Shown here piece after piece: positions 30,906 through 63,581 of a stretch of 64,000 bases of DNA (its first letter is position 1; each line of letters opens with the position of its first letter). The position numbers were made by a program, and so were the translations under genes. Source of the stretch: Sphaerisporangium album. GTDB taxonomy: Bacteria; Actinomycetota; Actinomycetes; Streptosporangiales; Streptosporangiaceae. The stretch covers positions 310,001 through 374,000 of the forward strand of contig NZ_QOIL01000006.1 of the NCBI RefSeq assembly GCF_003323745.1. The letters are read 5' to 3'. The notes under the pieces were generated by a model. The model made no database searches and was not told the DNA's origin. It saw only the letters and a program-made list of their open reading frames with translations.

Positions 30906-33275
30906 TCACGGGGCGGTGGGGCGGGTGCGGCCCCACGCCTCCGCGACGGTCGCGGGGTCGGTGACGGTCGCCTGGCCACGGGCCATGGCGAGCGCGGCGA
31001 GGAAGTCGTCGAGGCAGTACGCCTCGGGGCCGCCGGTCCAGTGGGTGCGCCAGTCGGAGCCGGTGCAGTCCCACGACTCGCCCTGCCCCTGGTTCACGAT
31101 CCGCTTGCCGCGCATGAACCTGTACGCCTGCAACGACCGCCACGTGCCGGGGTAGCCCCTGAGGAACTCCCCCAGCTTGTCCGGGGCGGCGTAGGTGTAG
31201 TTGTTGCCGTCGGTCGGGCTCGGCACCCACTTGGCGCACAGCTTCGTGGTGTCGTTGCACCGGCCTCCCGGGATGCTCCAGGTGTTCTGGAACCACGGCC
31301 CGGCCACACCGCCCGGCGCGCCCGGGGGCTTGTTGAAACCGGTGCCGTACTTGCGGCCGAAGGCGAAGCAGGTGGAGACGACGTCCTGCTGGATCTGCGC
31401 GGTCAGCTTGTCGTTGGGGTACACGAACAGCCCCCACGCCCGGTCGTGGCCATGGCTTTCGAGCGCGCCCAGCGAGCCGCACGACTCGTCGCGCTGCTCC
31501 TGCGGGGTCAGGCTCGTCATGTCGCGGTAGCCGGCGCCGTGGCTGACGAAGCTCCAGCCGTCCTCGTCGCGCAGCGTGGCGAGGTCGGCCCAGTTCGCGT
31601 AGCCGATCATGTCCAGGCACTGCCGGCCCTGGTCCAGGGCCCGGTTGACCACGACCGTGCCGGTGCCCGTGAACCCGCTCGCCTTGAACAGGCGGGCGGA
31701 CTCCCGCAACGGCACGGCGGCGCGCAGCGGCCGGCAGGCCCCGTCCGTCGCGGACCACTGCGTGCGGGACATGAGCAGGCTGACGTACCTGCCCGCCGTC
31801 CCGGGGTCGTGGTCGAAGCTCTGCCAGCGCGTGAGCTCCTTGTTCGCGGTGTCCACGATCCTGGCCGCGAGGACGTAGTGACCGGCGGCGGGCGCGCGCC
31901 ACGTGTGGGACCAGTTCTCTCCGGTCAGCGTCGCGGGGGCCCAGAGGGCGTTGTTGCCCCAGGTCCCGTTCGCCTGCCACCACTTCCCCGTGTCCAGGTT
32001 CTCCACCCCGATGACGACCTTGGCGACGGCGACGTCGTCGGTCGCGGTGCCGCGCATCTGGATGTCGGGCGAGGTGTAGCCCTGGCTTCCGACCGGGCTG
32101 GTCACCGTCCCCCCGGGCGGCGCGCCGTCGGGGCCGGGCGGGACGACGGAGAAGGCCTGCCAGGGGTGCGCGGTGTCCACCAGGCCCGTCGCGTCGACGG
32201 ACAGCACCGAAAGGCCGTAGTCGCCCGTGGCGGGTGGCGTCCAGGTGTAGGTCCAGCCGGTCTCCGTGAACGACAGCTGCCCGGACGCCGACGCCTGCCA
32301 GGGCTTGCCGTTGAGCGGCCCGGTCAGCGGCACCGTCCGGTCCTGGTAGGCGCCCCAGGTGCCGTCGTCGCGCCACCAGAGCCTGCTGGTCCTGTCCATG
32401 ATGGCCACGCGGACGGAGGCGACGCCGCGGTTGTCGCTCGCGGTGCCGGTCCAGGTGATCCGTTGCCCGGCCGGGTGGGTGGCCTGCCCCGCGGCCGCGG
32501 TGACCGCGGGCGGGGCCGCGTCCGTTCTCAGCAGGATTCCGGGCGACGGGACGGTGACGCCCTGTGCGTTCCGGATTCTGACGCTGACCCAGAAGTCCCC
32601 CTCGCGCGGGGGTGTCCAGTCGTAGGTCCAGGTCACCCTGGCCGCGCCCGGCGCGTCGAGGGTCACGGGGAGCGCCTCGAACGCCCCCCAGGTGCCGTCG
32701 GCGTGCCAGAACGTCCCGGCCGCCGCGTCGAAGATGGTCAGCGCGGCCCAGGTCACCCCGCCGGCCGCCTGGCCTGCCCCGCGCATCGTCGTCTTCGCGC
32801 CGACCCGCGCGATCGCGCCGGCGGAGGGCTCGGTGACGACCCCCGCCGGGTCGGCCAGGGCCGCGGGCAGGTCCACGACGGTGAAGCGCCGGTAGGGCAG
32901 GGTGGTGTCGACGGAGCCGTCGGCGGCGACCGCCTTGGCCTGGACGAGGTAGTCGCCGGGTTCGGGGGCCTGCCAGGTGAAGCTCCACGAGCCGCCGTCG
33001 AGGGACGCCTCCTGGCCCTGGTAGTCGCCCCACGTGCCGTCCGAGTGCCACCAGACGTTGCCGACGCGGTCGGAGACGGCGACCACCATCCTGGCGGCGC
33101 CGCTGAGCGTGCCGCGGAAGGTGATCGGCGCGCGGGTGTACAGGACGCCGTCGGCGGAGGGCTCGCCGATCGTGCCGGACGGGGCCGCCGCGGCGGGCGC
33201 GGCGGCCGTCGTGACCAGTCCGGCGGCTAGCACCAAGAGGGCGGCCAGGCCGGTGAGCAGTCGTCGGACGTTCAT
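30906..33275 (-). CDS. Secreted protein with four Ig-like repeats and a deacetylase-like C-terminal domain
   Basis: 789 residues. A signal peptide (MNVRRLLTGLAALLVLAAGL, then ALA-type cleavage near residue 32) is followed by four beta-sandwich repeats of about 105-125 residues. Each carries the same hallmark: WWHSDGTWGDYQ, FWHADGTWGAFE, WWRDDGTWGAYQ and WWQANGTWGNNA, and each ends in a GDY/GHY strand (EPGDYLVQAKA; ATGDYGLSVLS). The last 280 residues differ: ANWADLATLRDEDGWSFVSHGAGYRDM and WGLFVYPND are reminiscent of a NodB-type polysaccharide-deacetylase barrel, though metal ligands are not clear. It lies 14 bases after the Q/N-rich PstS gene, so it is probably co-expressed with the pst operon. 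A cell-surface glycan-binding or -modifying role is inferred. Confidence 0.7.
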   Translation of the reverse strand: MNVRRLLTGLAALLVLAAGLVTTAAAPAAAAPSGTIGEPSADGVLYTRAPITFRGTLSGAARMVVAVSDRVGNVWWHSDGTWGDYQGQEASLDGGSWSFTWQAPEPGDYLVQAKAVAADGSVDTTLPYRRFTVVDLPAALADPAGVVTEPSAGAIARVGAKTTMRGAGQAAGGVTWAALTIFDAAAGTFWHADGTWGAFEALPVTLDAPGAARVTWTYDWTPPREGDFWVSVRIRNAQGVTVPSPGILLRTDAAPPAVTAAAGQATHPAGQRITWTGTASDNRGVASVRVAIMDRTSRLWWRDDGTWGAYQDRTVPLTGPLNGKPWQASASGQLSFTETGWTYTWTPPATGDYGLSVLSVDATGLVDTAHPWQAFSVVPPGPDGAPPGGTVTSPVGSQGYTSPDIQMRGTATDDVAVAKVVIGVENLDTGKWWQANGTWGNNALWAPATLTGENWSHTWRAPAAGHYVLAARIVDTANKELTRWQSFDHDPGTAGRYVSLLMSRTQWSATDGACRPLRAAVPLRESARLFKASGFTGTGTVVVNRALDQGRQCLDMIGYANWADLATLRDEDGWSFVSHGAGYRDMTSLTPQEQRDESCGSLGALESHGHDRAWGLFVYPNDKLTAQIQQDVVSTCFAFGRKYGTGFNKPPGAPGGVAGPWFQNTWSIPGGRCNDTTKLCAKWVPSPTDGNNYTYAAPDKLGEFLRGYPGTWRSLQAYRFMRGKRIVNQGQGESWDCTGSDWRTHWTGGPEAYCLDDFLAALAMARGQATVTDPATVAEAWGRTRPTAP

Positions 33276-33289
33276 GTGGTGCGCCGGTC

Positions 33290-35263
33290 TCACTCGCCGC
33301 CGGGCCGGCCCACGCGGGCCAGGCGGCGGGCGCCACCGATGATCACCGGCGCGAACACGATGCCGACCAGCAGCAGCGCCAGCCCGAACAGGCCCCAGGG
33401 CGTGCCCGCCTGGGCCGCCACCGTGTTGACCTCGCGGGCGGCGTTCGCGGCGAGCGTCGGGTTGATCATGCCGTTGCCGGTGGCGCCGGGCGTGCCCGGG
33501 GCGCCAGGAACCTGCTGGACGTTGGGATCGCCGGACGTGGGCAGGCCGTTGGTCGCGACGGCGCCGGGGTCGCCCGTGGCGCTGGGGCCGGTGGTGCCCG
33601 GCGCGGTCGGGTCCCCGGTGTTCTGGCCGGGCTGCGGCGCACCGGTGCTCGCTCCGGGAGAGGGCGTCTTGCCGCCGGTGCCGTTCTTGGTGGGCGTGCC
33701 GTTCGGCGTCTTGGTGCCGTTCTGGTTGGTCTTGTTGGTGTTCTGCTTGTTCGTGTTCTGCTTGTTGGCGTTGTCGTTCTTCTGGTCCTTATTCTGGTCG
33801 TTCTGGTTCTTGTTCTCGTCCTTGTTCTGGTTGTTGTTCTGCTGGCTATTCTGCTGGTTGTTCTGGTCGTTCTGGTTGTTCTGGTTGTTGTTCTGACCGT
33901 TGTTCTGGTCGCCGCCGCCACCCCCGTTGTTGTTGCCGCCGTTGTTGTTCTCCTGCGGCGGGGGGTCGTTCTTGGTCTCCTGCCCTTCCTGTTCGCACGA
34001 GGTGCCGTCCGGAAGTTTCAGGCTCTTGTAGAACTTGCCCCACGTGGCGGCCTGATCCGCGTTCGGAATCGCCGGGTGACCGGGCACCTGGCCGAGTACG
34101 GCGAAGCCTTCCTGGATGAGGTTCGTGGGCAGCGGCGAGTAGCCGATCTTGTCGACGTTCTTCTGGCCGTCGGTGATCGAGTACAGCACGAACTTGGCGA
34201 GCGTCTCGCCCTTGGCCGGGTCGAGGCCGTCGGTGGGGACGATCACGTAGTTGTAGCTGGAGATCGGGTAGGCGCTGGGCGAGGGGTGCGTGTGCACGCC
34301 GTCCAGGTTGTAGGTGCCGTCTTCGTTGCGACGGGCGTTGGTGAGGGCGATCGCCTGGTTGCACGCCGTGGGCAGAGTGTAGTTGCCGGCGACGTTCCTG
34401 ATGGTCGCCACTGGGACGTCGAGTTGCTTGGCGTAGGCGTACTCCGCGTAGCCGATCCAGCCCCAGCTCGGGTTGCCCTGCTTGACCTGGATCGCCACGC
34501 GGTCGGAGCCGTCCACCCGGTCGATGTCCGGCCGGTCCGGCCACTCGTCGGTGGCGCCGCACGCCTGCGGGGTGCACTTGTTCGTCGGCCGCGTGGTCGC
34601 GCACCCGTTGGGGTTGCCGTCGATGCCCTGCATGTACGCCTTCCAGCGCTGCGGGTCCATGTGGTTGAGGTAGTCGGTGAAGACCGCCGTCGTCCCGGAA
34701 CCACCGGCGCGCACGACCGGACGTACCCGGACATGCGGCAACTGGGCGGCGATGCTGGGGTTGTCCGCCTTGACCGCTGGGTCGTCCCAGTACATCTCGG
34801 GGTTCGCGCCCGGGTCGGCGCAGGAGAACATGTTCTGCGTGAACAGCTTCACCAGCAGCGGGCCCGAGAGCTGGAGGTTGCTGATCGGCCTGCCCGCGTT
34901 GTCCTTGAGGTTCACCATGATGGCCGTGCCGCCGGCGACCAGCGGCATGTAGGTGTATCCGAAGGACGGCTTGGTCTCGTTGCCGAGGCCGCCGGGGAAG
35001 TTGTAGGACACGTCGCTGGAGGCGAAGTCGACCAGCTTGTTGGTGAAGTCCGTCCGGCCCTGGGTCGAGCCCTTCGGCTGGAAGTTGACGCTCAGCCCCT
35101 GCTTGGCGACGTCGGACATCCACTGCTGGATCGCGATGAACGCGAAGGTCGAACCGGACCCGTTGACGGCTGCGCCGGCATACGCGGGCACGGTCACGAC
35201 CTGTGCGAGGAACGCCACCAGGGCCACCAGGGCCAGGCGGGCGGCTCGTCGGCGGACAGCCAT
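33290..35263 (-). CDS. PstS-fold protein with Asn/Gln-rich tail and C-terminal membrane anchor
   Basis: 657 residues. Signal peptide 1-30; PstS/PBP-like fold to about residue 420 (NGSGSTFAFIAIQQWM, DFASSDVSYNFPGG, RAGGSGTTAVFTDYLNHM, SYNYVIVPTDGLDPAKGETLAKF). Residues about 438-518 are almost entirely Asn, Gln, Lys and Asp (QNNNQNNQNDQNNQQNSQQ). A Pro/Thr/Gly-rich segment follows, then one membrane helix (about 620-642, WGLFGLALLLVGIVFAPVII) and a basic tail. AGGAG precedes the ATG at 35263. Ordinary PstS is a free lipoprotein of about 370 residues, so anchoring by a C-terminal helix through a long polar tether is unusual. It follows pstB on the same strand and is likely the binding component of this Pst system. 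Phosphate specificity is not proven. Confidence 0.82.
   Translation of the reverse strand: MAVRRRAARLALVALVAFLAQVVTVPAYAGAAVNGSGSTFAFIAIQQWMSDVAKQGLSVNFQPKGSTQGRTDFTNKLVDFASSDVSYNFPGGLGNETKPSFGYTYMPLVAGGTAIMVNLKDNAGRPISNLQLSGPLLVKLFTQNMFSCADPGANPEMYWDDPAVKADNPSIAAQLPHVRVRPVVRAGGSGTTAVFTDYLNHMDPQRWKAYMQGIDGNPNGCATTRPTNKCTPQACGATDEWPDRPDIDRVDGSDRVAIQVKQGNPSWGWIGYAEYAYAKQLDVPVATIRNVAGNYTLPTACNQAIALTNARRNEDGTYNLDGVHTHPSPSAYPISSYNYVIVPTDGLDPAKGETLAKFVLYSITDGQKNVDKIGYSPLPTNLIQEGFAVLGQVPGHPAIPNADQAATWGKFYKSLKLPDGTSCEQEGQETKNDPPPQENNNGGNNNGGGGGDQNNGQNNNQNNQNDQNNQQNSQQNNNQNKDENKNQNDQNKDQKNDNANKQNTNKQNTNKTNQNGTKTPNGTPTKNGTGGKTPSPGASTGAPQPGQNTGDPTAPGTTGPSATGDPGAVATNGLPTSGDPNVQQVPGAPGTPGATGNGMINPTLAANAAREVNTVAAQAGTPWGLFGLALLLVGIVFAPVIIGGARRLARVGRPGGE
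33712..33955 (-). repeat. Low-complexity Asn/Gln-coding tract
   Basis: On the coding strand the tract is built from AAC, CAG and GAC codons, giving a locally A-rich composition unlike the surrounding DNA. On the plus strand it appears as repeated TTGTTCTGG units. It encodes the polar tether of the PstS-fold protein. Such tracts can change length by slippage. Confidence 0.7.
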
Positions 35264-35289
35264 TCGTCTGCTCCTAAACTCGGGAAGAC

Positions 35290-36123
35290 TCAGCCGAAGC
35301 GGCCGTTGACGTAGTCGGCGGTCCTCGGATCGTTCGGGTCCGAGAAGAGCCGGTCGGTGGGGCCCTGCTCGATGACCCGTCCGGGCTCGTTCTCGGCCGC
35401 CAGGAAGAAGGCGCAGTGCTGGGAGACGCGCTGCGCCTGCTGCATGTTGTGGGTGACGATGACGATCGTGACCTGGTCCTTGAGTTCGAGGATGGTCTCC
35501 TCGATGCGCCGCGTGGAGGTCGGGTCCAGGGCGGAGCAGGGCTCGTCCATGAGCAGCACGTCCGGGCTCACGGCCAGGGACCTGGCGATGCAGAGCCGCT
35601 GCTGCTGGCCACCCGACAGGCCGCCGGCCGGGGCGTCCAGACGGTTGCGGACCTCGTTCCACAGGCCCGCCCGGCGCAGGCTGGCCTCGATGAGGCCGTC
35701 CCGGTCGGCGACCTTCTTGCCGGTCAGCTTCAGCCCGGCCGCCACGTTGTCGGCGATCGTCATCGCGGGGAACGGGTTGGGCTTCTGGAACACCATGCCG
35801 ATGCGGCGGCGGACCTCGGTGAGACGCAGGCCCACCCCGTAGATGTCGTGGCCGTCGAGGAGGACGGAACCGGCGAGCGTGGCGATCGGCACCAGCTCGT
35901 GCATGCGGTTCAGCGTGCGCAGGAAGGTCGACTTGCCGCACCCGGAGGGCCCGATGAGCGCGGTCACGACTCCCGCGTCCATCTTGATGTTGACGCCCTC
36001 CAGCACCTTGCGGGACCCGAACCAGCAGCTGACGTCGACTCCTTCGAGAACGCCGCCCATCGGGCCGGGCACGGCCTCCTGCGGGGCCATAGGCCGCGTG
36101 TGGTCGAGCTCTGGCGCGGTCAT
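35290..36123 (-). CDS. pstB: Phosphate ABC transporter ATP-binding protein
   Basis: A 277-residue ABC ATPase with Walker [11 protein letters not shown]-loop [13 protein letters not shown] (the PstB-type Q-loop), signature LSGGQQQR, Walker [14 protein letters not shown] and switch His VTHNMQQA. The family-typical stretch [13 protein letters not shown] is present. It energises phosphate uptake through PstC/PstA. The start at 36123 has GGAAGGA upstream. The N-terminal 30 residues are longer than in typical PstB. It lies in the leftward operon pstC-pstA-pstB and is followed by the Q/N-tailed PstS-fold gene. Confidence 0.95.
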
Positions 36124-36154
36124 GGATGTCCGTCCTTCCACACTGGGTACTGCG

Positions 36155-37384
36155 TCAGCGGCCACGACGGCGCCCGCCACGGCCGGGGATGGGGATCCGG
36201 AACCTGCGCCGCCCCGGACCCGCCGAGCCGACCAGCCGGGCCAGGATGAACAGCAGGAGCACGATGACCAGCAGGATCAGCGCGCCCGCCCACCCGCGGT
36301 CGACCTGGCTCTCCTGCGAGCTCCTGATCTGCGTGAACACGAAGAGCGGCAGGTTGTCCTGGAACCCGGACAAGGGGTTGGGGTTCAGCAGCGTCGTACC
36401 GCCCGTCGTCATCAGCACGGGCGCCGTCTCGCCGACCACGCGCGCCATGCCGAGGATCACGGCCGTCGACAGCCCCGCGCGGGCGGTGGGGAGGACGACC
36501 ATCAGGACGCTGCGCCAGTACGGCGCGCCGAGGGCCAGCGCGGCCTCGCGCAGGCTGCCCGGCACCACGCGCAGCACCTGTTCGGCGGTGATCGTCACCG
36601 TGGGCAGCATCAGGATGGACAGCGCGAGAGACCCCAGGATGCCCGACTGCCCGATGATGTGCGGCTTGATGAACAGCGAGAAGATGAACAGGCCCGCGAC
36701 GATCGACGGCAACGCGGTCATGGCGTCGGCGACGAGGCGGACGGGCCGCGCGAGCGGGCCCTTGATCTCACTGAGGTAGACGGCGGTGAGCACGCCGAGC
36801 GGCACCGCGATGACCGTGGCGAGCGCGAGCTGCTCCAGGGTCCCGATGATCGAGTGGAGGGCGCCGCCGTCCGTGGCCTCCGCGAGCGGGCCGACGAACT
36901 GCATGGTCTGGGTGAAGAAGTTGCCGCTCAGGGACTTCAGCCCGCGGTACAGCACGTACCCGATCACGAAGACGATCGGCGTGAAGGTGAACAGCGCGCC
37001 CGCCATGACGAAGACGGTGGCGACTCGGTCCTTCGCCGCCGTCGTGCCCTGCCCGTCCTTTGTCACGAACCAGTAGATCGGCAGGAACAGCACGAACCAG
37101 ATCGCGAAGAAGGCGAGCGGCATGATCCGGAAGGGCAGCAGCCTGTTGAAGATCAGCCACGTCAGGAAGAACGAGGCGGCGAGCGCGCCCGCGGCCTCCG
37201 CGATGTCGCTCCATCGCCACGCCCGCGGCCTCCGGCGCGGCGGCACCCTGCGGGCGGGGCCGGCGGGCGACCCCGTGGACGGCCCCGTGGACGACGCCGT
37301 GGGCGCGCCCTTCGATCCGGCGTCCAGGGACGCGGGGCTCGCCCCGGGCGCGGCCGTCAGGGCCCTGGTCTCCTGTGTCGTCAC
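36155..37384 (-). CDS. pstA: Phosphate ABC transporter permease PstA
   Basis: A 409-residue permease. A long Ala/Ser/Pro-rich cytoplasmic N-terminus (about 60 residues) precedes six or more helices. PstA hallmarks are the periplasmic [52 protein letters not shown] and the coupling loop [21 protein letters not shown]. It starts with GTG 37384 overlapping the pstC stop (GTGA). About 100 residues longer than the usual PstA because of extra N-terminal helices. It forms the phosphate channel with PstC. Confidence 0.93.
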
Positions 37385-38385
37385 GTGCTCGCTCCGGATC
37401 GGGACCTGCTGACCACCATCGCCGCCAGGAAGTTGATGGCGAAGGTGACGATGAACAGCGCGAGGCCCGCGGCCATCAGAGCGCTGAGGCCCATCTCCTT
37501 GGCGTCGCGGAACTCGATGGCGATGCCGCTCGCCACGGTGATGCCGCCGTTCTCCAGGATCCTGGGCTTGATCTCGAAGGCGATCGAGAGGATCAGCGTG
37601 GCGGCCAGGGTCTCCCCGAGCGCGCGGCCGAGGCCGAGCATCGAGCCGCCGATGATGCCGCCCTTGCCGAACGGGAGGACGACCGAGGTGATCATTCCCC
37701 AGCGCGTCCCGCCCAGGGCCAGCGCGCCCTCGCACTCGTGCCGGGGCGCCTGGGCGAGCACCTCACGGATGATCGAGGTCGTGATCGGGATGGTCATGCA
37801 GGCGACGATCAGTCCCGCGTTGAACAGCGACCCGCCGGTGGCCGACGCCTCCGCCAGCGGCAGCCAGCCGCCGAACTGCGCGACCACCCAGTCCTCGATG
37901 GGCGCGAGCGCCGGCACGAGGAAGAACAGCCCCCAGATCGCGAAGATCAGGCTCGGGATGGCCGCCATCAGGTCGACCAGCGACGTGAGGCTCCTGCGAA
38001 CGGCCCGGGGGGCGTACTCGTTGATGAAGAGCGAGGTGCACACCGCGACGGGCACGGTGATCGCCATCGCCACCACGGCGCTGACGAACGTACCGAACAT
38101 CATCGCCGCGACGCCGAATCTCGGCGGCTGACCGTCGGGGGTCCAGACTTTCTCGGTCAGGAACGAGAACCCGGCCTCCTTCAACGCGGGCCACGCGCCG
38201 ATCAGGAGGAAAACGCCGATGAGCGTGATGAGCAACAGCGTCGCGGCCGCGCCCGACGACACGACTGCCCGGTACACCCGGTCGGCGTCGGTCAGCCGGG
38301 CTTCGAGCTTTCGCGGTTCATCGGCATGTGGCGGTGGTTCGGGCACATCGCTCGGGACCGACCCCTGAGGGTCAGTTGTCTGCAC
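37381..38385 (-). CDS. pstC: Phosphate ABC transporter permease PstC
   Basis: A 334-residue permease with six helices: LLLITLIGVFLLIGAWPAL, then FGTFVSAVVAMAITVPVAV, NEYAPRAVRRSLTSLVDLMA, PSLIFAIWGLFFLVP and the coupling loop CEGALALGGTRWGMI ahead of MLGLGRALGETLAATLI. Start GTG 38385 follows GAGGAG by seven bases; longer frames upstream are without similarity. First gene of the Pst operon, expected to be under phosphate control; the divergent 38386-38738 segment is the promoter region shared with the neocarzinostatin/PstS-like gene. Confidence 0.94.
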   Translation of the reverse strand: MQTTDPQGSVPSDVPEPPPHADEPRKLEARLTDADRVYRAVVSSGAAATLLLITLIGVFLLIGAWPALKEAGFSFLTEKVWTPDGQPPRFGVAAMMFGTFVSAVVAMAITVPVAVCTSLFINEYAPRAVRRSLTSLVDLMAAIPSLIFAIWGLFFLVPALAPIEDWVVAQFGGWLPLAEASATGGSLFNAGLIVACMTIPITTSIIREVLAQAPRHECEGALALGGTRWGMITSVVLPFGKGGIIGGSMLGLGRALGETLAATLILSIAFEIKPRILENGGITVASGIAIEFRDAKEMGLSALMAAGLALFIVTFAINFLAAMVVSRSRSGAST

Positions 38386-38738
38386 GTCGATCTCCTCGTC
38401 AGCGGGCGCTGAGTCTCCAGCGATTCCTCGACGGATCCTCACGGCCGTCGCGTGGTCCCGGCAGGTTGCTCGAGGTCCGCCGCAAGTGTCGGACATGTCA
38501 TATGGCTGATGCGCTAATGGCGCGTGAACACGCGTGGGCAGGTGCTCGACGGGCACCATGCACCGTTCCACCCGAATCCGAGGCCATTTCCAGAACGCGA
38601 ATCCAGGATGAACGAACTCGGACGACCCCACGACGAATGTCCGCACCCATTGTCCGCGGTGAGCTCGGAGCGCTTCCCTATATGGGGCATATGCAGCGAG
38701 GTACGCACGCCCCGTTCAGGGCATCTAGGAGAGCGGAC
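38386..38738. promoter_or_regulatory. Divergent control region between pstC and the 878-residue surface protein gene
   Basis: 353 bases with no gene. It contains CATATG-type patches (GACATGTCATATGGCTG at about 38490-38506; CTATATGGGGCATATGCAGC near 38679-38698) that may be promoter elements. On the minus strand GTTCATCCTGG-ATTCGCG (38591-38613) loosely resembles 11-base-spaced actinobacterial PHO-box repeats (GTTCACC). The match is weak and is offered only as a candidate. Confidence 0.35.
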
Positions 38739-41375
38739 GTGTTGCGAAGAAGGCGTTTGGCGCTGCTGGCCGTGGCGGTGACGGGAGGTTCCGCGATCTT
38801 GGCGGTGGGCCCCGCACCGGCGCAGTCCCCGGCGAGCGCGGCGGAGCCGACCCCGACGGTCGAGGTGTGGTCCGCCGACGGCAGCACGAGGCTGGACGGG
38901 ATCACCAACCAGTTGCTCGGCCCGCAGCAGACGGTCACGGTCAAGTGGTCGGGTTTCACCCCGAACTCCTCGATCGTGCTCACCCAGTGCACGACCCCCG
39001 GCCGGGCGTGGTACGTCTACGACGGCAGCGTCATGAACGCCACTAACTGGAGCCCGTTCGACTGGTGCGGCCCGCAGATCCGCAAGCCGGTCAGCACCGG
39101 GCCCGACGGCAGCGGCTCGGCGACGTTCACCGTCAAGCAGGGCACGATGGCGCCCTCGGTCGTGTACAGCACCGGCGCGAACACCAAGACGAACAAGTCC
39201 TTCCTGTGCGCGGCGAACGCTCCCTGCATCGTCATCGCCAGTGAGTGCGAGTGGAGCCAGCCCCTGGACTACCAGACCACCTGGCCCCAGACCCTTTACC
39301 CACGCGCGGCGCAGCCCGAGGGCGTCGTGGACCCCGCGCGGGCGGCGGCGAGCCAGAGCCTCAACTTCGCCCCCGGCGATGACGGGAACCCGATCACCAC
39401 CGTCATCCCCCCGCTGACCCTTCCCGAGTTCCCCAAGGACAAGCCGCCGCCCGTGCTGCCGCCCGTCACGGGCGGGAAGGTCGGAGGCCCCATCTACGGG
39501 ACCGGCTCCGCCAACGTCGCGACGGTGTTCGAGGGCTGGCTCATCGACGTGCGCGCCCAAGCGAAGGCGGCGGACGCCGGGTACTCCCGCACGACGTCCG
39601 ACCAGGGCGGCGACGTCCTGAAGTCCGGGTTCGACACCAACTTCGACAGCGGCGCCGACTACGCCGTCACCGGCATCGATTACACAAAGGACAAGGTCGG
39701 CGGGGACGTCGCCTACGCTCCCATCTCGCTCACCGCCCTCGCCATCGCCAATCAGGTCGAGGTCGCCGGCCAGCCGATCCGCGAGGCGCGGATGAGCCCC
39801 CTCACCCTCGCCTGGATGCTCGGCCGGAACGCCGCGCCCACCACCGGGCCGCTGAACGACCTCAACGCCTACTCCATGGACTGGGGCGTGCTGTCCGGCG
39901 GCGGGAAGACCATGCTCGCCAAGGACAACCACGGCTGCGAGCTGCCTCCCCGCTCGGTCACCCCGATCTTCCGCCTCGGCAAGTCGGCGCAGAACAAGGT
40001 CCTTTCTGCGTGGCTGGGCGCGAACATCCCGCTGGAGCTGTTCAAGAAGGAATTCCCCATCAGCGACCCGGGCAGCCTGGAGTTCCTGTCGAGCCAGGCC
40101 GGAGTCCGCGGCACCCAGAGCGGCGCCGAGACCGCCTCCCAGCTCGCGACGCAGTTCGGCGACCTCACCAAGTCCAAGGCCGACGGCTCGCCCGACGAGA
40201 ACGTGTTCGGGTACCGCAACGGCAGGGCGTCGCTCGGATACCTGGACATCACCGAGGTCAAGGCGTACGCCGAGCGCGGGTTCACGCTCGGCGTGTCCCC
40301 GCTGCTCAACGCGGCCGGGAAGTACGTGGCGCCGACCAAGGAGTCGATCCTCGCCGCGTTCGCGACCATGAAGAAGGAGGCCGACGGGACGTACACGCCG
40401 GTCTTCGACGCCAAGGACGCGGCGGCGGCCTATCCCCTGCCGATGATCCACTACCTCGCGGTGCCGAAGAGGAACGCCGACGGGAAGAACCCGTTGCCGC
40501 AGGACAGGCGCATCGCGCTCGCCGCCCTCATCAGGTACATCGTCGGCGACGAGGCGCAGGCGAAGGTCGAGCGGCTCGGCGGCGCGCCGCTGCCGCAGGC
40601 GCTGCGCGCGCAGTCGCTGCAGGTCGCCGACATGCTGGAGACCCCGGACACGCCGAGCGACGACCCCACGCAGCCGCCCGCCGGGAACGGCGGGGGCGGG
40701 AACGGCGGCGGAGGCAACGGGGGAGGCGGCAACGGCGGTACCGGACCCAAGACCACCAACGAGGGGACGCCCGGCCCGCCCGACGACAACGCGGACCTCC
40801 TCGACGGCGCCGCCAGGCCGGCCCCGACCGCGACCGTGCGGATCACCCACACCCCGTCCCCGCGCGCCACCGCCAAGTCCTCCGGCACCGGCAAGTCGTC
40901 CGGCGGCAGCGGGAGCGGCGGCTCCTCGAACCAGCAGCCGATCGGCGGCGGCACGAACAGCGGCACGAACACGGGCGGCACCGGGGCGGGCGGAGCGACC
41001 ACGACCCCGCCCCCCGCCGTCGACCCAGGAACGGGAACGGGCCAGACCCCGCCCGCCGAGACCACGCAGCAGCCCGGCGCCCAGACGACCCCGAGCGCGC
41101 AGCCACTGGCCAACGAGGGCACCATCCGCGGCGGCACGATCCCGGCCGCCTCGTGGGCCGCGCGGACCAGCCTGCTGCTGATCCTCGGCCTGATCGCGCT
41201 GTCGGTCGGCGGCACCTGGCGCGGGTACGTGTTGTGGCGGATCCGCGCCAACGCGGTCACCGCGACGGCCGCCGGACCCAAGCCCCCCACCGGGGCCCCG
41301 GGCTCCGGCGCCACTCCCCCGGCGACCTCGAACTCCGGCACGACTCCCCCGGCGACTCCGGGCTCCGGCGCATGA
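38739..41375 (+). CDS. Surface protein: neocarzinostatin-like domain + PstS-like domain + membrane anchor
   Basis: 878 residues from GTG 38739 (TAGGAGAG five bases upstream). Signal peptide about 1-35. Residues about 40-170 resemble the Ig-like neocarzinostatin/macromomycin fold (LLGPQQTVTVKWSGFTPNSS, VLTQC, then DGSGSATFTVKQG). Residues about 245-640 resemble a PstS/PBP fold (GTGSANVATVFEGWLIDVRA; FASSD-like GADYAVTGIDYTKDK; DRRIALAALIRYIVGDEAQA). Then come a GNGGGG repeat linker, a Pro/Thr/Ser-rich stalk and a membrane helix near 806-830 (TSLLLILGLIALSVGG) with a short basic, Pro-rich tail. The stop overlaps the next ATG (ATGA). It is divergent from pstCAB. It is probably displayed outside the membrane on a stalk; ligand unknown. 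Confidence 0.72.
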   Translation: MLRRRRLALLAVAVTGGSAILAVGPAPAQSPASAAEPTPTVEVWSADGSTRLDGITNQLLGPQQTVTVKWSGFTPNSSIVLTQCTTPGRAWYVYDGSVMNATNWSPFDWCGPQIRKPVSTGPDGSGSATFTVKQGTMAPSVVYSTGANTKTNKSFLCAANAPCIVIASECEWSQPLDYQTTWPQTLYPRAAQPEGVVDPARAAASQSLNFAPGDDGNPITTVIPPLTLPEFPKDKPPPVLPPVTGGKVGGPIYGTGSANVATVFEGWLIDVRAQAKAADAGYSRTTSDQGGDVLKSGFDTNFDSGADYAVTGIDYTKDKVGGDVAYAPISLTALAIANQVEVAGQPIREARMSPLTLAWMLGRNAAPTTGPLNDLNAYSMDWGVLSGGGKTMLAKDNHGCELPPRSVTPIFRLGKSAQNKVLSAWLGANIPLELFKKEFPISDPGSLEFLSSQAGVRGTQSGAETASQLATQFGDLTKSKADGSPDENVFGYRNGRASLGYLDITEVKAYAERGFTLGVSPLLNAAGKYVAPTKESILAAFATMKKEADGTYTPVFDAKDAAAAYPLPMIHYLAVPKRNADGKNPLPQDRRIALAALIRYIVGDEAQAKVERLGGAPLPQALRAQSLQVADMLETPDTPSDDPTQPPAGNGGGGNGGGGNGGGGNGGTGPKTTNEGTPGPPDDNADLLDGAARPAPTATVRITHTPSPRATAKSSGTGKSSGGSGSGGSSNQQPIGGGTNSGTNTGGTGAGGATTTPPPAVDPGTGTGQTPPAETTQQPGAQTTPSAQPLANEGTIRGGTIPAASWAARTSLLLILGLIALSVGGTWRGYVLWRIRANAVTATAAGPKPPTGAPGSGATPPATSNSGTTPPATPGSGA

Positions 41376-43123
41376 CTCCGATGGACGTCGCGTCGCCGGC
41401 CGAAGGAGGCGGCGAGGAGGGGTACACCGCCGCGCTGGAGATGGCCGACCAGGCCGTGGCCCGGCTGGAGGAGACGGTCGCCCGCGTGTCCGGCACCGGC
41501 GGCGGGCCGGAGCATGCCAACGCCCTCGTCCAGGCGGGGTCGGCCTCGGTGCTGCTCGGGCAGCTCGAACTGACCGTCCCCGCCCACGACACCGCCCGCA
41601 GGGCCGTGGCCGTGGCCCTGCGGGCGCGCTACGACGACGCGCTCCTGCGGCTCGGCGCGGTTCCCGCTCCCGCGCAGGCGGCGCCCGCCATGCCGTACGG
41701 CCCGGCGCCGTGGATCCAGGTCGGGCCCGGGCAGTGGATGCCGCTGCCCCCGGCCACCGTGCCGGGCATGCCGCCCGGCTATGCCCTGCCGCCCGGGTAC
41801 GGACTGCCGTACGCCGTTCCGCAGGGGTACAGCGTGCCCGTGCCCTACCCGGGGCACACCGGCTACCCGGGCCACACGGTCCTGCCGGGCCAGACCGTGC
41901 CTCCCGGCCCGGGCGTGCCCCCGGCGCAGGGCGCGCCTCCGGCCCAGACGGGTCCGTCCGGTGACACGGCACCGCAGGCGCACACCGCACCGGCCGCGCA
42001 CGCCGCGCAGACGATGGGCCGGCCGGCGGCGTCCGCCCACACGGCGCCTCCCGGCCACCAGTTCGCCCAGCCCCCGGGTCACCAGTACACCCAGCCTCTC
42101 GGCCAGCCGTACCCTCAGGCCTACACCCAGCCGTTCACGCAATCCTTCGGGCGGCCGATGCCGCCCGGGCCGGGCGCGCCGATGTACCGCATGCCCGCGT
42201 ACGCCCCTCCGCCGAGGGTCAGTTGGTGGCGCACGCTGAAGAAGTCGATCGGCGACCTCCCCCCGGAGGTGCGCAAGCTGGGCGGCGTCGCGATGAGCGC
42301 GCTCACCGTGATGGGCGCGCTGCTGGTCGCCTTCTCGTTCTACGCGTCGTGGTTCGGCCACCTGACCTACGAGCGCAACCAGCGGATCATGGTCGACGAG
42401 ATCAACGACAAGTTCAAGATCGCCGCGGCGATCGCGGCGGCCCCCCAGCCCGGAGACCCCAACCTGGCGGCCAACCCGCCGCGCGGCGAGCCCATCGCGT
42501 TGCTGGAGATCCCCAGGATCGGCGTGCACGAGGCCGTGGTGCAGGGCACCGGCACGGCCGAGCTGAGGTCGGCGGTCGGCCACTACCGGCCGTCGTCGAT
42601 GCCGGGCCAGGTCGGGAACGCCGTCCTCGCCGGGCACCGCGACCTGTACGGCGCGCCGCTGGCCCGCATCGGAGAGCTCAAGAGCGGGGACAAGATCACG
42701 GTCACCACGCAGGAGGGCAAGTTCTCCTACACGGTGGAGACGACGCTGCGCGCCAGGACCGGCGAGCAGGACTTCATCTCGCAGGCCACGATCGTCAACC
42801 GGCTGACGCTGCTGACCACGCTGGAGTCGGGCGGCGGCGGCAGGCTCGCCGTCGTCGCGCGGCTCGACGGCCAGGTCGCGTCGCTGAAGACCCAGGACGA
42901 GAACCAGGTCAAGGTGGACGAACTGGGCCTCGGGCGCGATCCGACGGCGTGGTGGCCGAGCATCGGCTGGGGCGTGGTGTTCTTCGGCCTGCTCACCGGG
43001 ACGTTCGCGCTCTATCGCCGGTGGCGGAGGGCGTCGGCCTACGTGCTCACCACTCCCGCGCTGCTGGCGATGGTGCTGATCTGGTTCGAGGCGCTCGCCC
43101 GCCTGTTCCCGTCGACGTTCTGA
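41372..43123 (+). CDS. Sortase-fold membrane protein lacking the catalytic cysteine
   Basis: 583 residues. A helical N-terminus (MADQAVARLEETVARVSG) is followed by a long Pro/Tyr/Gln/Gly-rich cytoplasmic stretch (105-290), helix 1 (about 304-328), an extracellular class-E/F-like sortase domain (about 370-500) and two helices at the C-terminus. The sortase domain has LLEIPRIGVHEAVVQGTG and the catalytic His H422 in AGHRDLYG. At the site of the nucleophile the expected TLxTC reads TLLTT, so Thr (T483) replaces Cys, while the downstream Arg (R491 in GGRLAVVAR) is kept. It is translationally coupled (ATGA) to the 878-residue surface protein. It is unlikely to perform normal sortase transpeptidation and may be a scaffold or receptor. 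Confidence 0.8.
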   Translation: MTPMDVASPAEGGGEEGYTAALEMADQAVARLEETVARVSGTGGGPEHANALVQAGSASVLLGQLELTVPAHDTARRAVAVALRARYDDALLRLGAVPAPAQAAPAMPYGPAPWIQVGPGQWMPLPPATVPGMPPGYALPPGYGLPYAVPQGYSVPVPYPGHTGYPGHTVLPGQTVPPGPGVPPAQGAPPAQTGPSGDTAPQAHTAPAAHAAQTMGRPAASAHTAPPGHQFAQPPGHQYTQPLGQPYPQAYTQPFTQSFGRPMPPGPGAPMYRMPAYAPPPRVSWWRTLKKSIGDLPPEVRKLGGVAMSALTVMGALLVAFSFYASWFGHLTYERNQRIMVDEINDKFKIAAAIAAAPQPGDPNLAANPPRGEPIALLEIPRIGVHEAVVQGTGTAELRSAVGHYRPSSMPGQVGNAVLAGHRDLYGAPLARIGELKSGDKITVTTQEGKFSYTVETTLRARTGEQDFISQATIVNRLTLLTTLESGGGGRLAVVARLDGQVASLKTQDENQVKVDELGLGRDPTAWWPSIGWGVVFFGLLTGTFALYRRWRRASAYVLTTPALLAMVLIWFEALARLFPSTF

Positions 43124-43129
43124 GCCGCG

Positions 43130-45568
43130 GTGCAGGCAACGAGGCTTCGCCGCCGGCTCCCCTTCACGCCGAAGACCGCGTGGGGCATCGCCGACCAGGC
43201 CCTGGCCAGCGCGACGAGCATCGCCCTCACCGTGGTGGTGGCGCGCGAGGTCGACATCGCGGCGCTCGGCGCGTTCGCGATCGCCAACACGCTCTACATG
43301 ATCGTGCTGGGGTTCTCGCGGACGGTCGTCTCCGAGCCGCTGCTCGTCCGGTTCAGCCACGTGCCGCCGGACGAGCACCGGCGCGGCGTCCGCGAGTCGA
43401 CCGGGCTCGCGCTGCTCATCGGCCTGCTCGGGGGGCTGCTGCTGATGGCCGTCGTGCCCCTGTCCGGGGGCGCGGTGGCCGAGGCGGTCTACCCGCTGGC
43501 ACTCTTCCTTCCCGGCCTGCTGCTCAAGGACGCCTGGCGGTTCGCGTTCATCGCCGCGGACCGGCCGGGGCAGGCCATCCTGAACGACGTCATCTGGGCC
43601 GCCGGACAGGTCGCCGGGGTCGGCTGGGTCATCCGCTCCGGTCACCCGACGGTGGGGGGCATCGTGGCGGCCTGGGCGATCTCGGCGACGGTCGCCGCCG
43701 TGGCGGGGGCGGTGCAGGCCCGCGTCCTGCCGGCCCCGTGGCGGGCCCACCGATGGGTCCGCGCGACCTGGGACCTGCTGCCCGCCTACACCGTCGAGTT
43801 CGTCGCGCGGATGGGCGGGCGCAACCTCGCGATGCTGGCCATCGGCTGGGCCGGCGGGCTTCAGGTCCTCGGGGCGATCCGCGCGGCCGAGGTCGTGTTC
43901 GGCCCGCTGAACGTGCTGCTGCAGGCTGGCGGCCTCGTCGCCATCCCCCAGGCCGTGGGCGCGCTGAGGCGCTCGGCCGCGACCCTGCGCACCACGGTGG
44001 TCACCCAGTCCGCGGCCCTGGTCGTGATGGCCGCCGGCTACACGGTGGTCGCCCTGGTGCTGCCCGTCGGCGTCGGACGGGCGCTGGTCGGCGAGTCGTG
44101 GGGGCTGGCCGAGTCCATTCTGCTGCCGACCGCCCTCCTGTACGCGTGCGTCGCCGCCATGACGGGGCCGGTGGTCGGTCTGCGCGCCCTCGGCGACACC
44201 CGCCGCAGCCCGGCCGTGCGCCTGATGTTCGCTCCCCTCTACATCGGCTTCAGCGTGGCCGGAGCCGCCTCCTACGGCGCCGTGGGGGCCGCGACGGGGC
44301 TGGCCCTCGCCAACCTCGCCGGGGCGGCGCTGTGGATCTGGCAGTTCCACTCCGCGGTCCGCGGGGCCGAGCCGCCGGACTCCTCGCCGCCTCTGGTCCC
44401 GACCTCCGTGTCCGCGCCCGTCGCGGCGCCCGCTGCCAAGCCCGCGCCGGCGCCCCCCGCACCGGCGTCATCGGCCCTGCCATCCATCCGACGAGTCACC
44501 CGAGGAGACACGATGGAACTCTCCGAATATGGGCGACGGTATCGCGGGATCATCGTTCCGCTGGCCGCCATTCCCATCGTCGCCGCGGCGGGCGGCGCCG
44601 GCTGGGCGTACCTCCAGCCGCTCACCTACCGGCACGTCGTCGAGCTGCAGGTGACCACCCCGGACGCCGCCGGGGGCGCCGCCCTCGCCGAGCAGTCCGT
44701 CGCCAACTACCGCACGCTGGTCGGCTCCGCCTCGGTGACCGAGGCGGCGGCCAGGAAGACGGGCGTGGACGCCGGCAGCGTCGCCGGCGGGCTGACCACC
44801 GCGCGGCCCGACGGCGTCAAGGAGCGCGGCACCGTCGTCCAGGTCGTCTACACCGGCGAGGACCCGGTCAAGGCGGCGGCCGTCACCCGCGCCGTGGCCA
44901 CCGCCGCCCTGGACGCGCTGATCGACCCGTACGTGCAGCGCGCGAAGTCGGACGTCGCCACGGCGCGGCGCACCGCCGACGACAGCGCCAAGGCCCTGGC
45001 CAAGGTGGTGAGGAAGAACGGGCTGGCGCCCGACCGCTACCGCGTGCTGTACGCCGAGATCACCCGGCTGCAGTCGGAGCTGGCGGCTCCGACGGGCACC
45101 CGCGACAAGAACGAGATCCTCAAGGCCATCAGCGACCGGCAGAAGCAGCTCGCCGCCCTCACGCCCGACCTGGTGCCGTTCATCGCGCGGCAGAACGAGT
45201 CCGACCAGGCCAACCGCTTTCTCGTTCAGGCCACGCAGACGCTGCGCCAGGCCGAGGCGCGGCTGGCCCAGTCCAGGGCGTCGATCCGGCCGGTCACCCC
45301 CGAGGGCGAGGCGGTCGCGAAGTCGCCGCTCGTGGCGAGGTCGGCGGCGATGGCGGGCGGCGTCGGAGCGCTCCTGGCGGTCGTCATCCTGCTGCTGCGC
45401 GAGCTGCTGCGCCAGCGCCGCCCTGTGGTCCACCTCGGCCCGCCGCGCGTCTCGGCGGTGCAGGCGATGCCGCCGGGGCAGCCCCCGCAGCACGACGTGC
45501 GGGTGATCGAGCCGGAGATCCGCGTCCTCAGCGGCGGCGAGCGCACCGAGCACCGCCAGCTCGGCTGA
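43130..45568 (+). CDS. Continuous frame: Wzx-like polysaccharide flippase joined to Wzz-like chain-length protein
   Basis: An unbroken 812-codon frame. Residues 1-420 form a 12-14 helix MOP-superfamily flippase (TAWGIADQALASATSIALTV, VSEPLLVRF, FVARMGGRNLAMLAIGWAGG, AAEVVFGPLNVLLQAGGL). A Pro/Ala-rich linker (about 425-455) leads into a Wzz/PCP-like part: membrane helix IIVPLAAIPIVAAAGGAGWAYL, periplasmic coiled region (KSDVATARRTADDSAKALAK, EARLAQSRASI) and a second helix AAMAGGVGALLAVVILLLREL. A ribosome site and in-frame ATG lie at the junction (separate entry), so fusion protein, separate Wzz or both are possible. It lies seven bases after the sortase-like gene and would export and size the polysaccharide made by the 48-56 kb genes. 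Confidence 0.8.
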   Translation: MQATRLRRRLPFTPKTAWGIADQALASATSIALTVVVAREVDIAALGAFAIANTLYMIVLGFSRTVVSEPLLVRFSHVPPDEHRRGVRESTGLALLIGLLGGLLLMAVVPLSGGAVAEAVYPLALFLPGLLLKDAWRFAFIAADRPGQAILNDVIWAAGQVAGVGWVIRSGHPTVGGIVAAWAISATVAAVAGAVQARVLPAPWRAHRWVRATWDLLPAYTVEFVARMGGRNLAMLAIGWAGGLQVLGAIRAAEVVFGPLNVLLQAGGLVAIPQAVGALRRSAATLRTTVVTQSAALVVMAAGYTVVALVLPVGVGRALVGESWGLAESILLPTALLYACVAAMTGPVVGLRALGDTRRSPAVRLMFAPLYIGFSVAGAASYGAVGAATGLALANLAGAALWIWQFHSAVRGAEPPDSSPPLVPTSVSAPVAAPAAKPAPAPPAPASSALPSIRRVTRGDTMELSEYGRRYRGIIVPLAAIPIVAAAGGAGWAYLQPLTYRHVVELQVTTPDAAGGAALAEQSVANYRTLVGSASVTEAAARKTGVDAGSVAGGLTTARPDGVKERGTVVQVVYTGEDPVKAAAVTRAVATAALDALIDPYVQRAKSDVATARRTADDSAKALAKVVRKNGLAPDRYRVLYAEITRLQSELAAPTGTRDKNEILKAISDRQKQLAALTPDLVPFIARQNESDQANRFLVQATQTLRQAEARLAQSRASIRPVTPEGEAVAKSPLVARSAAMAGGVGALLAVVILLLRELLRQRRPVVHLGPPRVSAVQAMPPGQPPQHDVRVIEPEIRVLSGGERTEHRQLG
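44502..45568 (+). other. Internal ribosome site and ATG for a separate Wzz-like protein
   Basis: GAGGAG (44502-44507) lies five bases before ATG 44513, which is in frame with the flippase. From this ATG a 351-residue protein starting MELSEYGRRYRGIIVPL would correspond precisely to a normal Wzz-like protein start. No stop codon separates it from the flippase, so the two genes are merged or nested in the same frame. It could yield both a fused and a free product. Confidence 0.6.
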
Positions 45569-46637: not shown

Positions 46638-47825
46638 TCAGTTCACGTCGAACGTGACGCACTTGTTGCCGGTCGGGTTGACCTTCACGAAGCCGTTGGC
46701 GGTGATGACCTGGTCGATCGCCACGCCCCAGTTGCGGTCGACGTTCGCGTTGACGATGCCCGGGTTCGGGTCGCCGGTCGGCTTGCTGTGCAGGGCGTTC
46801 GGCTTGCAGATCCAGCCGGCCTCGCCCACGTAGCCCTGGATCCACGCCGGGCCGCCGCGGCGGTAGGCGTTGAACAGGGTGCGGTTGAACTGGTAGGTGC
46901 CGTTCTGGATCGTGGTGGGAGACGCGGCGATGCCGTTCACGCTGATCAGAGCGGTCCCGGTCGGGCTGCAGTCGGCCTCACCGGTGGTGTACTTGCCGAA
47001 CGACAGGGCCCAGATCGACCGCTGGCGGTCGACGGCGGGCAGGGTGTTGATCGGGGTGCAGTTGTTCTCGAAGAGGACCTGGCCGCCGGTGGCCGCGACG
47101 CAGGTGTTCGGGTCGCCGCCGAGGAAGCCGGACCACGCCGAGTAGGTGCCGGAGCTGGTCTGGATGCCGTTCACGCGGATGAGCGCGTTGCCGCCGCCGA
47201 ACTCGTTCCAGTTACGGTTGCAGCCGCCGGGGCCCGTGCCGAGGAAGATCTCCTTGAGCTGGGCGACCGTCAGGTTGGCCACGCCGTCGGAGGCGCCGCC
47301 GGTCCACCGCGGGATCGCCACGGCGTCCTTGGCCCAGCCGACGTAACGGAGCTTGTCGTTGGGGTCGTTCTTGCACTCGCTCGGGGCGCTGCCCGGGGCC
47401 GAGGAGGAACGCGCGTAGCTGTAGTACAGGGTGCCCGACAGGCCGTCGTTCTCCTGGCACAGCATGCGCAGACCGGCCGAGGAGCCCTGCGGGAACATCT
47501 CGGTGGCGACCTCGTGGTCGTAGTTCTCCGTCGTCACGGTGGTGGCCGTGTCGGCGAGGCAGGTCCACTGCGGGGTCGCCGGCGGGACGGTCAGGTTGCA
47601 GCCCGGGGCCTCGTTGAACAGGTTGTCCAGGTCCTGCATGGCGAAGTAGGTCGTGTCCGACCCGGCGCCCGTCATGACGAAGTTGAAGTGGCCGTCGGAG
47701 AAGTCGGGGAGCGCCGAGGCCGGGAGCGCGAAAAGGCTCACGGAGGTGAACACGGCCGCGATGGCGGCGACGCGCCGGGCCAGGCCGCGCAGCCGGCTCT
47801 TCTTTTCGGAAATTTCGATGGACAT
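46638..47825 (-). CDS. Secreted PstS-like substrate-binding protein
   Basis: 395 residues. Signal peptide with basic N-terminus and ALPASALPDF cleavage region near 38-40, then a PstS-like fold (MTGAGSDTTYFAMQDLDNLF; GWAKDAVAIPRW; LTVAQLKEIFLGTGPGG; SSGTYSAWSGFLGG). Six or more Cys suggest disulfides. No lipobox, no C-terminal helix and no LPxTG-like signal, so it is probably free or bound to other wall components. The classical phosphate-binding GSGT loops are only partly kept, so the ligand may not be phosphate. It is the third PstS-like protein in 15 kb and is not adjacent to permease genes. Confidence 0.72.
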   Translation of the reverse strand: MSIEISEKKSRLRGLARRVAAIAAVFTSVSLFALPASALPDFSDGHFNFVMTGAGSDTTYFAMQDLDNLFNEAPGCNLTVPPATPQWTCLADTATTVTTENYDHEVATEMFPQGSSAGLRMLCQENDGLSGTLYYSYARSSSAPGSAPSECKNDPNDKLRYVGWAKDAVAIPRWTGGASDGVANLTVAQLKEIFLGTGPGGCNRNWNEFGGGNALIRVNGIQTSSGTYSAWSGFLGGDPNTCVAATGGQVLFENNCTPINTLPAVDRQRSIWALSFGKYTTGEADCSPTGTALISVNGIAASPTTIQNGTYQFNRTLFNAYRRGGPAWIQGYVGEAGWICKPNALHSKPTGDPNPGIVNANVDRNWGVAIDQVITANGFVKVNPTGNKCVTFDVN

Positions 47826-56753: not shown

Positions 56754-56915
56754 CTAGCCGCCGACCGTGACGTCGTCCGTCGGCAGCACGCCGTCCACCA
56801 GCGGGAACACCACGTACCAGAGCAGCAGCACCACCACGGCGAGCAGCACCGCGGCCGACACCAGCTTGCCGAACGTGCGGCCCGGAAGCCGCTTCCAGAT
56901 CCACGGGTAGATCAC
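56754..56915 (-). CDS. Small membrane protein of the class E sortase cassette
   Basis: 53 residues from GTG 56915, overlapping the sortase stop (GTGA). Sequence MIYPWIWKRLPGRTFGKL, then one helix (VSAAVLLAVVVLLLWYVVFPLV) and an outer tail ending DDVTVGG. As I recall, small proteins of this form (YxWIWRxLPG then one helix) often follow class E sortase genes in actinomycetes, so it is probably a conserved sortase partner. Function unknown. Confidence 0.7.
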   Translation of the reverse strand: MIYPWIWKRLPGRTFGKLVSAAVLLAVVVLLLWYVVFPLVDGVLPTDDVTVGG

Positions 56916-57589: not shown

Positions 57590-57626
57590 CGTGCCGGTCA
57601 CTGGTCTCCCGGCCACCGCTCGCCTG

Positions 57627-63367: not shown

Positions 63368-63452
63368 GTGGGGTTTCTTTCTGTCCGTAAAGGAGGGGAG
63401 TTCCGTCCGCGGAGCACGGCAGGTGACCGCATTCACCCAGCCGCGACCGGCA

Positions 63453-63485
63453 GGGACATGAAGATCACCTGGACGCCACGTGAAC
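63453..63485 (-). promoter_or_regulatory. Candidate PHO-box-like direct repeats
   Basis: On the minus strand three 11-base units run GTTCACGTGGC, GTCCAGGTGAT, CTTCATGTCCC. The first matches the actinobacterial PhoP unit GTTCACC at six of seven positions, the others less well. They lie about 86 bases upstream of the metallophosphatase start. Phosphate control is inferred. Confidence 0.35.
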
Positions 63486-63540
63486 ATAAGCTCGCGTATG
63501 ACAAAGATCACATGGCCTCTGACCTGCGAAATCGCAAATA

Positions 63541-63581
63541 TGTCGGATTCTGCGTCCGACACCGGCGCTCCCCGCGCCGGT
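63541..63581. promoter_or_regulatory. Two adjacent perfect inverted repeats
   Basis: TGTCGGA (63541-63547), seven-base spacer, TCCGACA (63555-63561); directly followed by ACCGGCGC (63561-63568), TCCCC, GCGCCGGT (63574-63581). They share base 63561. They lie 89 bases upstream of the last gene and may be operator and hairpin elements of its control region, or a terminator pair. Confidence 0.5.

Follow-up and report, generated by a model that had tools for sequence, protein, structure and literature searches.

What role is left to a sortase that has lost its catalytic cysteine, and why is such a protein encoded beside a surface protein resembling the phosphate-binding receptor PstS? The question is raised by a 64,000-nucleotide stretch of the Sphaerisporangium album genome (the window), in which a first-pass annotation had noticed a sortase-fold protein whose catalytic Cys is replaced by Thr. 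The open reading frame, its frame and the residues concerned were confirmed, and the original observation is real and reaches further than that annotation claimed.

The window protein belongs to the sortase superfamily by its match to Pfam Sortase (PF04203, 3.7e-23, residues 378-498) and by comparison of an AF2 model, built from a nine-row alignment and of moderate quality (pLDDT 69), with known structures. The best Foldseek match was SrtE (5go5, 1.3e-13), and class D 4d70 and SrtE1 5cuw were also among the top six; homology thus establishes the sortase fold. Against the class E model NCBIfam NF033747 the protein scored 111.9 bits, below the 160-bit cut-off. The catalytic His and Arg positions are retained as H422 and R491, and the nucleophile position is T483, in the motif TLLTT. 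With neither a His-Cys-Arg triad nor a TLxTC motif, the protein does not qualify as a catalytic sortase. A displaced Cys close to H422 and R491 was looked for, and the whole protein of 583 residues contains none. The T483 codon had been read correctly as ACG; its conversion to TGC or TGT takes three base changes, where at least two had been stated. A sequencing error can nonetheless be ruled out, as the annotation had argued, because three orthologues (L011/L046, L040 and L041) also read TLLTT.

Hydropathy analysis placed one transmembrane (TM) segment ahead of the barrel and two behind it, the last loop carrying the sequence RRWRR. The positive-inside rule was used to orient the membrane helices, and on this basis the RRWRR loop places the barrel outside the cell. 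The 190-residue region described earlier is indeed cytoplasmic by topology and rich in proline (residues 101-290: 48 P, 27 A, 24 G, 17 Q and 12 Y). Conservation of the N-terminal region is poor, with 27 of 200 positions (101-300) aligning in Actinomadura craniellae. Within the window's own subgroup, purifying selection acts on the barrel (dN/dS about 0.22-0.53, crude NG86 estimates from six pairs).

Table 1 Features of the pseudo-sortase locus, in window positions or protein residues.
Feature	Position	Strand	Basis and remarks
PstS homologue, C-terminal TM	33293..35272	-	8ods 1.7e-24; RAGGSGT; 5' end approximate
PstB ATPase	35290..36180	-	TIGR00972 best family, 333.6 bits, slightly below 343.2 cut-off
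PstA permease	36158..37600	-	NCBIfam TIGR00974, 226.6 bits, over cut-off; 5' end approximate
PstC permease	37384..38500	-	NCBIfam TIGR02138, 255.9 bits, over cut-off; 5' end approximate
Partner: surface PstS-like protein	38736..41375	+	ATGA overlap with pseudo-sortase; start codon uncertain
Pseudo-sortase gene, 583 aa	41372..43123	+	ORF, Pfam, topology, structure model
Cytoplasmic N-terminal part	residues 1-300
TM ahead of barrel	residues 302-329
Extracellular sortase barrel	residues about 371-499
C-terminal TM pair	residues 530-548 and 554-582
Y405 codon	42584..42586	+	Aligned via GHY motif with SrtE1 Y229
H422 codon, catalytic His position	42635..42637	+	Arg/Lys in 69/73 Cys-less loci
T483 codon (ACG), position of sortase catalytic Cys	42818..42820	+
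R491 codon, catalytic Arg position	42842..42844	+	Arg in 7/73 Cys-less loci, 2 uncovered
Secreted PstS-like (PBP_like_2) protein	46638..47825	-

After a preliminary survey of 60 genomes and named contigs, a 12-row profile (A2) was run against 393 genomes belonging to the same class and 396 from the phylum to gather relatives. In the class search, matches carrying the C-terminal tail scored E 5.6e-48 or better, some of them clipped by contig ends, and ordinary class E sortases, at 1.7e-43 or worse, stopped short of the tail. The phylum search also returned Cys-bearing sortases with a tail, whose scores fell within the family's range (down to 2.3e-69), and the Cys-less set was therefore defined by residues rather than scores. 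The resulting tally of 73 loci, which excludes the Cys-bearing L042, contained no Cys at the nucleophile position in any of the 72 covered loci, all from a single phylum: Ala was found in 45, Ser in 17, Thr in six, Gly in three and Val in one, with one locus uncovered. The His position held Arg in 64 loci, Lys in five and His in four, and the Arg position Val (27), Ala (14), Arg (7), Ile (6), Leu (6), Thr (4), Tyr (4), Ser (2) or Glu (1), with two uncovered. His-Cys-Arg was complete in all 11 tailed Cys-bearing sortases (L042 and ten more). Among 28 ordinary class E-type rows, His was present in every one, Arg in 22 of 22 covered and Cys in 22 of 22 covered (read directly in 20, one column off with TTC visible in two, uncovered in six). 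Loss of the nucleophile across the family is thereby established.

The four-member window subgroup is the only one to keep both His and Arg; it reads His-Thr-Arg in all four members, each of which also has Y405, the beta3/beta4-loop Tyr of class E sortases. Whether Thr is conserved in the clade, a point the first-pass annotation had raised, has a divided answer, since it is held in this nearest subgroup and gives way mostly to Ala or Ser elsewhere. The 61 non-window Cys-less rows share a different set of residues: Arg (57) or Lys (4) at position 422, Arg at 406 in 50, Arg as the commonest residue at 405 (37, the class E Tyr in none), Gln at 448 in 57, Arg at 477 in 52 of 60, and a new conserved acidic residue, Asp at 495, in 55 of 59. 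Both types occur together in genome G032, one of whose two pst/pseudo-sortase loci (L046/L054) is His-Thr-Arg and the other of Arg-Ala type. The distribution of the family is patchy, ten genomes of the window's own genus giving only weak matches to the window protein (best 9.5e-19). All 12 A2 members match both Pfam Sortase and the general NCBIfam sortase model at E 0.01 or better, so databases probably label them sortases, and sortase counts based on Pfam include non-enzymes.

A maximum-likelihood tree (102 rows, 208 columns, the three triad columns removed) grouped 69 Cys-less rows by one branch with support 100/99, and all 32 Cys-bearing rows (11 tailed, 21 untailed) fell on its other side. 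One of the 70 rows labelled as dead, the second piece of L197, is a fragment of a Cys-bearing protein, which leaves 69 real ones. Left out of the tree were L007, L009, L043-L045, L131, L133, L135 and L136, four of them Cys-less, and any row in which fewer than 95 columns were filled or the Cys position was uncovered. The identical split (100/98) had been obtained in an earlier tree, built from 89 rows and 125 columns. Homologues with Cys in the majority, which would imply a recent inactivation, were thus sought, and the Cys-bearing sortases found lie across a well-supported branch; recent inactivation is ruled out by this split and by the family-wide absence of Cys. The window subgroup (the window, G032, Spongiactinospora gelatinilytica and A. 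craniellae) is among the deepest Cys-less branches and is excluded from a 62-row group at 98/90. This fits an order of events in which Cys was lost first and the His and Arg positions were rebuilt later, an order that would depend, as does a single recruitment of the sortase into a Pst-type locus, which we infer, on rooting by the Cys-bearing rows. Three genomes (G443, G739 and G775) each have one dead and one tailed Cys-bearing copy, and in all counts loci of the same genome and near-identical rows are not independent, so that Fisher tests of the pst linkage and of the co-occurrence with the partner exaggerate the certainty.

The neighbourhoods of these loci establish a linkage to pst genes; the PstCAB genes had gone unmentioned in the first-pass annotation. 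With strict thresholds, at least one Pst gene was found at 64 of the 73 Cys-less loci, and each of the nine others has at least one flank shorter than 5 kb; where at least 5 kb was available on both sides, pst genes were present at 54 of 54 loci. None was found beside the 11 tailed Cys-bearing sortases (0/8 with both flanks) or beside 25 untailed Cys-bearing controls, every one with the Cys motif (0/21 with both flanks). A looser threshold added weak PstB-like ABC ATPase matches at three of the 25 untailed and nine of the 11 tailed controls, and no PstA or PstC in either set. At these nine tailed loci (L042, L186, L189, L191, L192 and L195-L198) the weak match starts within about 1.4 kb on the opposite strand, and the tailed Cys-bearing sortase and a PstB-like ATPase are possibly another conserved pairing.

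A common order elsewhere is PstC, PstA, surface PstS-like proteins, pseudo-sortase, PstB, and a same-strand PstB lies downstream of the pseudo-sortase at 42 of the 53 loci that have one. In the window the pst genes are divergent from the surface gene/pseudo-sortase pair and do not form a single operon with it. A second PstB, 59% identical, is encoded elsewhere in the genome, so the window locus need not be its sole Pst system. From homology and the RxxGSGT motif of its PstS, the window locus would be predicted to transport phosphate. A PstS homologue with a C-terminal TM was found at 59 of the 73 loci, with RxxGSGT in 26 of them; in 19 of the 59 no phosphate-site-like motif was recognised, and the transported substrate may therefore not always be phosphate. 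The secreted PBP_like_2 protein of the window also occurs close to the corresponding loci of G032, Spongiactinospora and A. craniellae.

The partner gene overlaps that of the pseudo-sortase by ATGA, as had been noted. Read from 38736 the gene has 879 codons (878 residues had been noted); the start is uncertain, the longest open reading frame beginning at 38328. The protein ends in a Gly/Ser/Pro/Thr stalk and a C-terminal TM, and it aligns with the partners of distant loci (11 rows, 24 invariant columns). A profile of the partner core (A5) matched mycobacterial and E. coli PstS structures at 5.5e-11 and weaker; a structure model of the partner (pLDDT 33) was discarded. Across the 393 genomes the pseudo-sortase is present in 49 (48 at E 5.6e-48 or better, plus G089, counted by a tail fragment alone with the Cys position unread), the partner in 50 and both in 47, establishing their co-occurrence. 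The three genomes with only the partner (G106, G258 and G375) have contig ends nearby; G258 has a piece of the pseudo-sortase at the contig edge, and G106 none in the 2.3 kb after the partner. The pseudo-sortase without partner was seen in G089 and G169. The suggested coupling to a PstS-like surface gene is thus general.

Before the TM of the window partner no LAXTG was found. A wider count covered 119 surface-type proteins from 59 of 63 loci examined, and L[AP]xT[GA] was near the TM in seven: one of the 91 proteins (57 loci) of the partner homology group, all five of another surface group, whose scanned member (L099) has Ig domains, and one single protein. The residues just before the partner TM are LANEG in the window and G032 and VSNPG in A. 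craniellae, three sequences that give only a hint of a decayed LAXTG signal. Scanning of 20 proteins at these loci detected further domains (PBP_like_2, Big_3_5, fn3 and WxLIP_PGBD). WxLIP_PGBD matches were at L105 (6364-7440, over the Pfam cut-off) and L106 (5031-6113, just below it).

Our preferred reading, held with moderate confidence, is that this protein is the non-catalytic sortase of a Pst-type importer and that it acts towards membrane-anchored PstS-like proteins as a receptor or scaffold that does not cut them. Its forerunner would be a class E-like sortase ending in two C-terminal helices, recruited a single time, by some ancestor inside the phylum, to the locus of a Pst-type ABC importer, where it would have lost catalysis. 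Its barrel would be directed outward on three membrane helices, and its partners would be PstS-like proteins whose C-terminal end is made up of a stalk and a TM, in many cases with a short basic tail as well, in effect the layout of a sortase substrate minus the cleavage motif. The former substrate groove would bind the juxtamembrane part of these proteins without cutting it, keeping the bound receptors next to the PstC/PstA channel, with a possible effect on phosphate uptake. The pseudo-sortase would thus probably hold importer parts together rather than cut. In SrtE1, Arg329 and Tyr229 have been proposed, from a tripeptide-bound structure and modelling, to hold the sorting signal, with Y229 reading the P3 residue of LAXTG (PMC5148588). 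Since the window subgroup keeps R491 and Y405, its groove could still bind a sorting-signal-like peptide uncut; in most relatives the signal-contacting Tyr and Arg are replaced, and the groove may bind something else or nothing. More tentatively, and with some doubt, the nucleophile of the enzyme and the cleavage motif of the substrate may have been lost together, turning a one-time anchoring reaction into a permanent non-covalent receptor, whose former active site, rebuilt with Arg/Lys in most lineages, may contact the transported anion. Among the roles named in the first-pass annotation, the one that fits best is a pseudo-enzyme with a scaffolding or assembly function; nothing was found in favour of a decoy receptor, which was set aside.

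The dead sortase might instead be a sorting chaperone, retaining surface proteins in unprocessed form until they are handed over to an active class E sortase whose gene lies elsewhere. Six further sortase-family genes are present in the genome, including two within the window, and L002/L003 and L004 at least retain His-Cys-Arg; at 6 of 63 loci, moreover, proteins from outside the partner group carry LAxTG before the TM. A role of this kind has been suggested for SipA/LepA in streptococcal pilus assembly, which might offer a precedent by analogy (PMC7900414). We nevertheless regard such a hand-over as unlikely, given that the motif is present in just seven of the 119 surface-type proteins and that the linkage runs to pst genes. 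We would also be rather surprised if the former active site had become a basic pocket for phosphate or some anionic polymer, through which the protein signalled to the importer or fed it. The replacement of His by Arg/Lys and of Tyr/Pro by Arg at 422, 406, 405 and 477 in the 61 rows would suit such a sensor, but the window subgroup keeps His and Tyr, and the conserved Asp at 495 (55/59) could pair with Arg.

We know of no sortase that uses Thr as its nucleophile. The His-Thr-Arg arrangement of all four subgroup members would be compatible with such an enzyme, yet the other family members have Ala, Ser, Gly, Val or Thr there, and a 2026 paper describes the His-Cys-Arg triad as common to all sortases (PMC13257024); we consider a catalytic Thr very improbable. 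The missing catalytic residue could also mark a decaying pseudogene or an assembly artefact. This is refuted by the wide distribution, by purifying selection in the window subgroup and by the absence of internal stops, which holds for class-search matches at E 5.6e-48 or better and for all phylum-search matches.

The pseudo-sortase shares fold, N-terminal TM and sequence similarity with the class E sortases (S. coelicolor SrtE1, 5cuw; S. avermitilis SrtE, 5go5), and in the window subgroup the residues at the Tyr, His and Arg positions as well, but it lacks the nucleophile, has the two-helix tail and adjoins pst genes, and the window partner lacks LAXTG. The tailed Cys-bearing sortases (L042, L186, L189 and L191-L198) have the barrel and a similar two-helix tail and outscore untailed class E sortases with the family profile; they differ in their intact triad (11/11) and in having no pst neighbours (0/11). 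The best precedent known to us for retaining an inactive membrane peptidase next to surface proteins is, by analogy, SipA/LepA, a catalytically dead signal-peptidase homologue of streptococcal pilus loci (PMC7900414). Both are membrane peptidase folds without catalytic residues beside the surface proteins that they serve or would serve; however, the folds are unrelated, Pfam and NCBIfam scans of the window protein returned no Signal peptidase I family, and SipA/LepA acts in pilus assembly whereas the pseudo-sortase sits beside an ABC importer. Homologues of PstC, PstA, PstB and PstS are shared with the canonical PstSCAB system, to which the pseudo-sortase is an addition; the PstS-like proteins here have a stalk and C-terminal TM as their anchor, frequently number more than one per locus, and are in some cases fused to Ig/fn3 domains. 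A resemblance to WxL/WxLIP wall binding is confined to a minority of loci, including L105 and L106 (the homology group of the L105 protein spans 11 loci), and WxLIP_PGBD was not found among the window proteins scanned.

Our literature search, which covered largely titles and abstracts with subscription journals mostly outside its scope, found no published pseudo-sortase and no sortase fold in a pst locus. A widespread family that lacks the triad and is kept by selection, as measured in the window subgroup, suggests that the sortase fold has a second job. The loci point to a surface-anchored form of the Pst importer in Actinomycetota, of which we found no description, and supply a concrete candidate partner and a putative binding site. 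If the proposal is correct, there would be a second kind of phosphate importer, anchored at the surface, with a member of a phylum-wide pseudo-sortase family among its structural subunits.

Several neighbouring genes deserve mention. The further sortase-family genes of the window lie at 56915-57637 (-) and 59295-59903 (-); the former (L004), with an intact His-Cys-Arg, is matched by a counterpart close to the loci of G032 and Spongiactinospora. Directly downstream of the pseudo-sortase, 43130-45568 (+) encodes 812 aa with no Pfam match, conserved in G032 and A. craniellae; it is apparently a fusion, its G032 counterpart being called as two genes, which we take to be flippase-like and chain-length-determinant-like. 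Adjoining the anchored PstS gene, 30909-33293 (-) encodes 795 aa that match an Ig domain and, slightly under the cut-off, a polysaccharide deacetylase. Finally, a purple acid phosphatase (61658-63562, -; Metallophos 7.4e-18, Pur_ac_phosph_N 9.1e-17) is encoded about 18 kb from the pseudo-sortase, in keeping with the phosphate theme of the locus.
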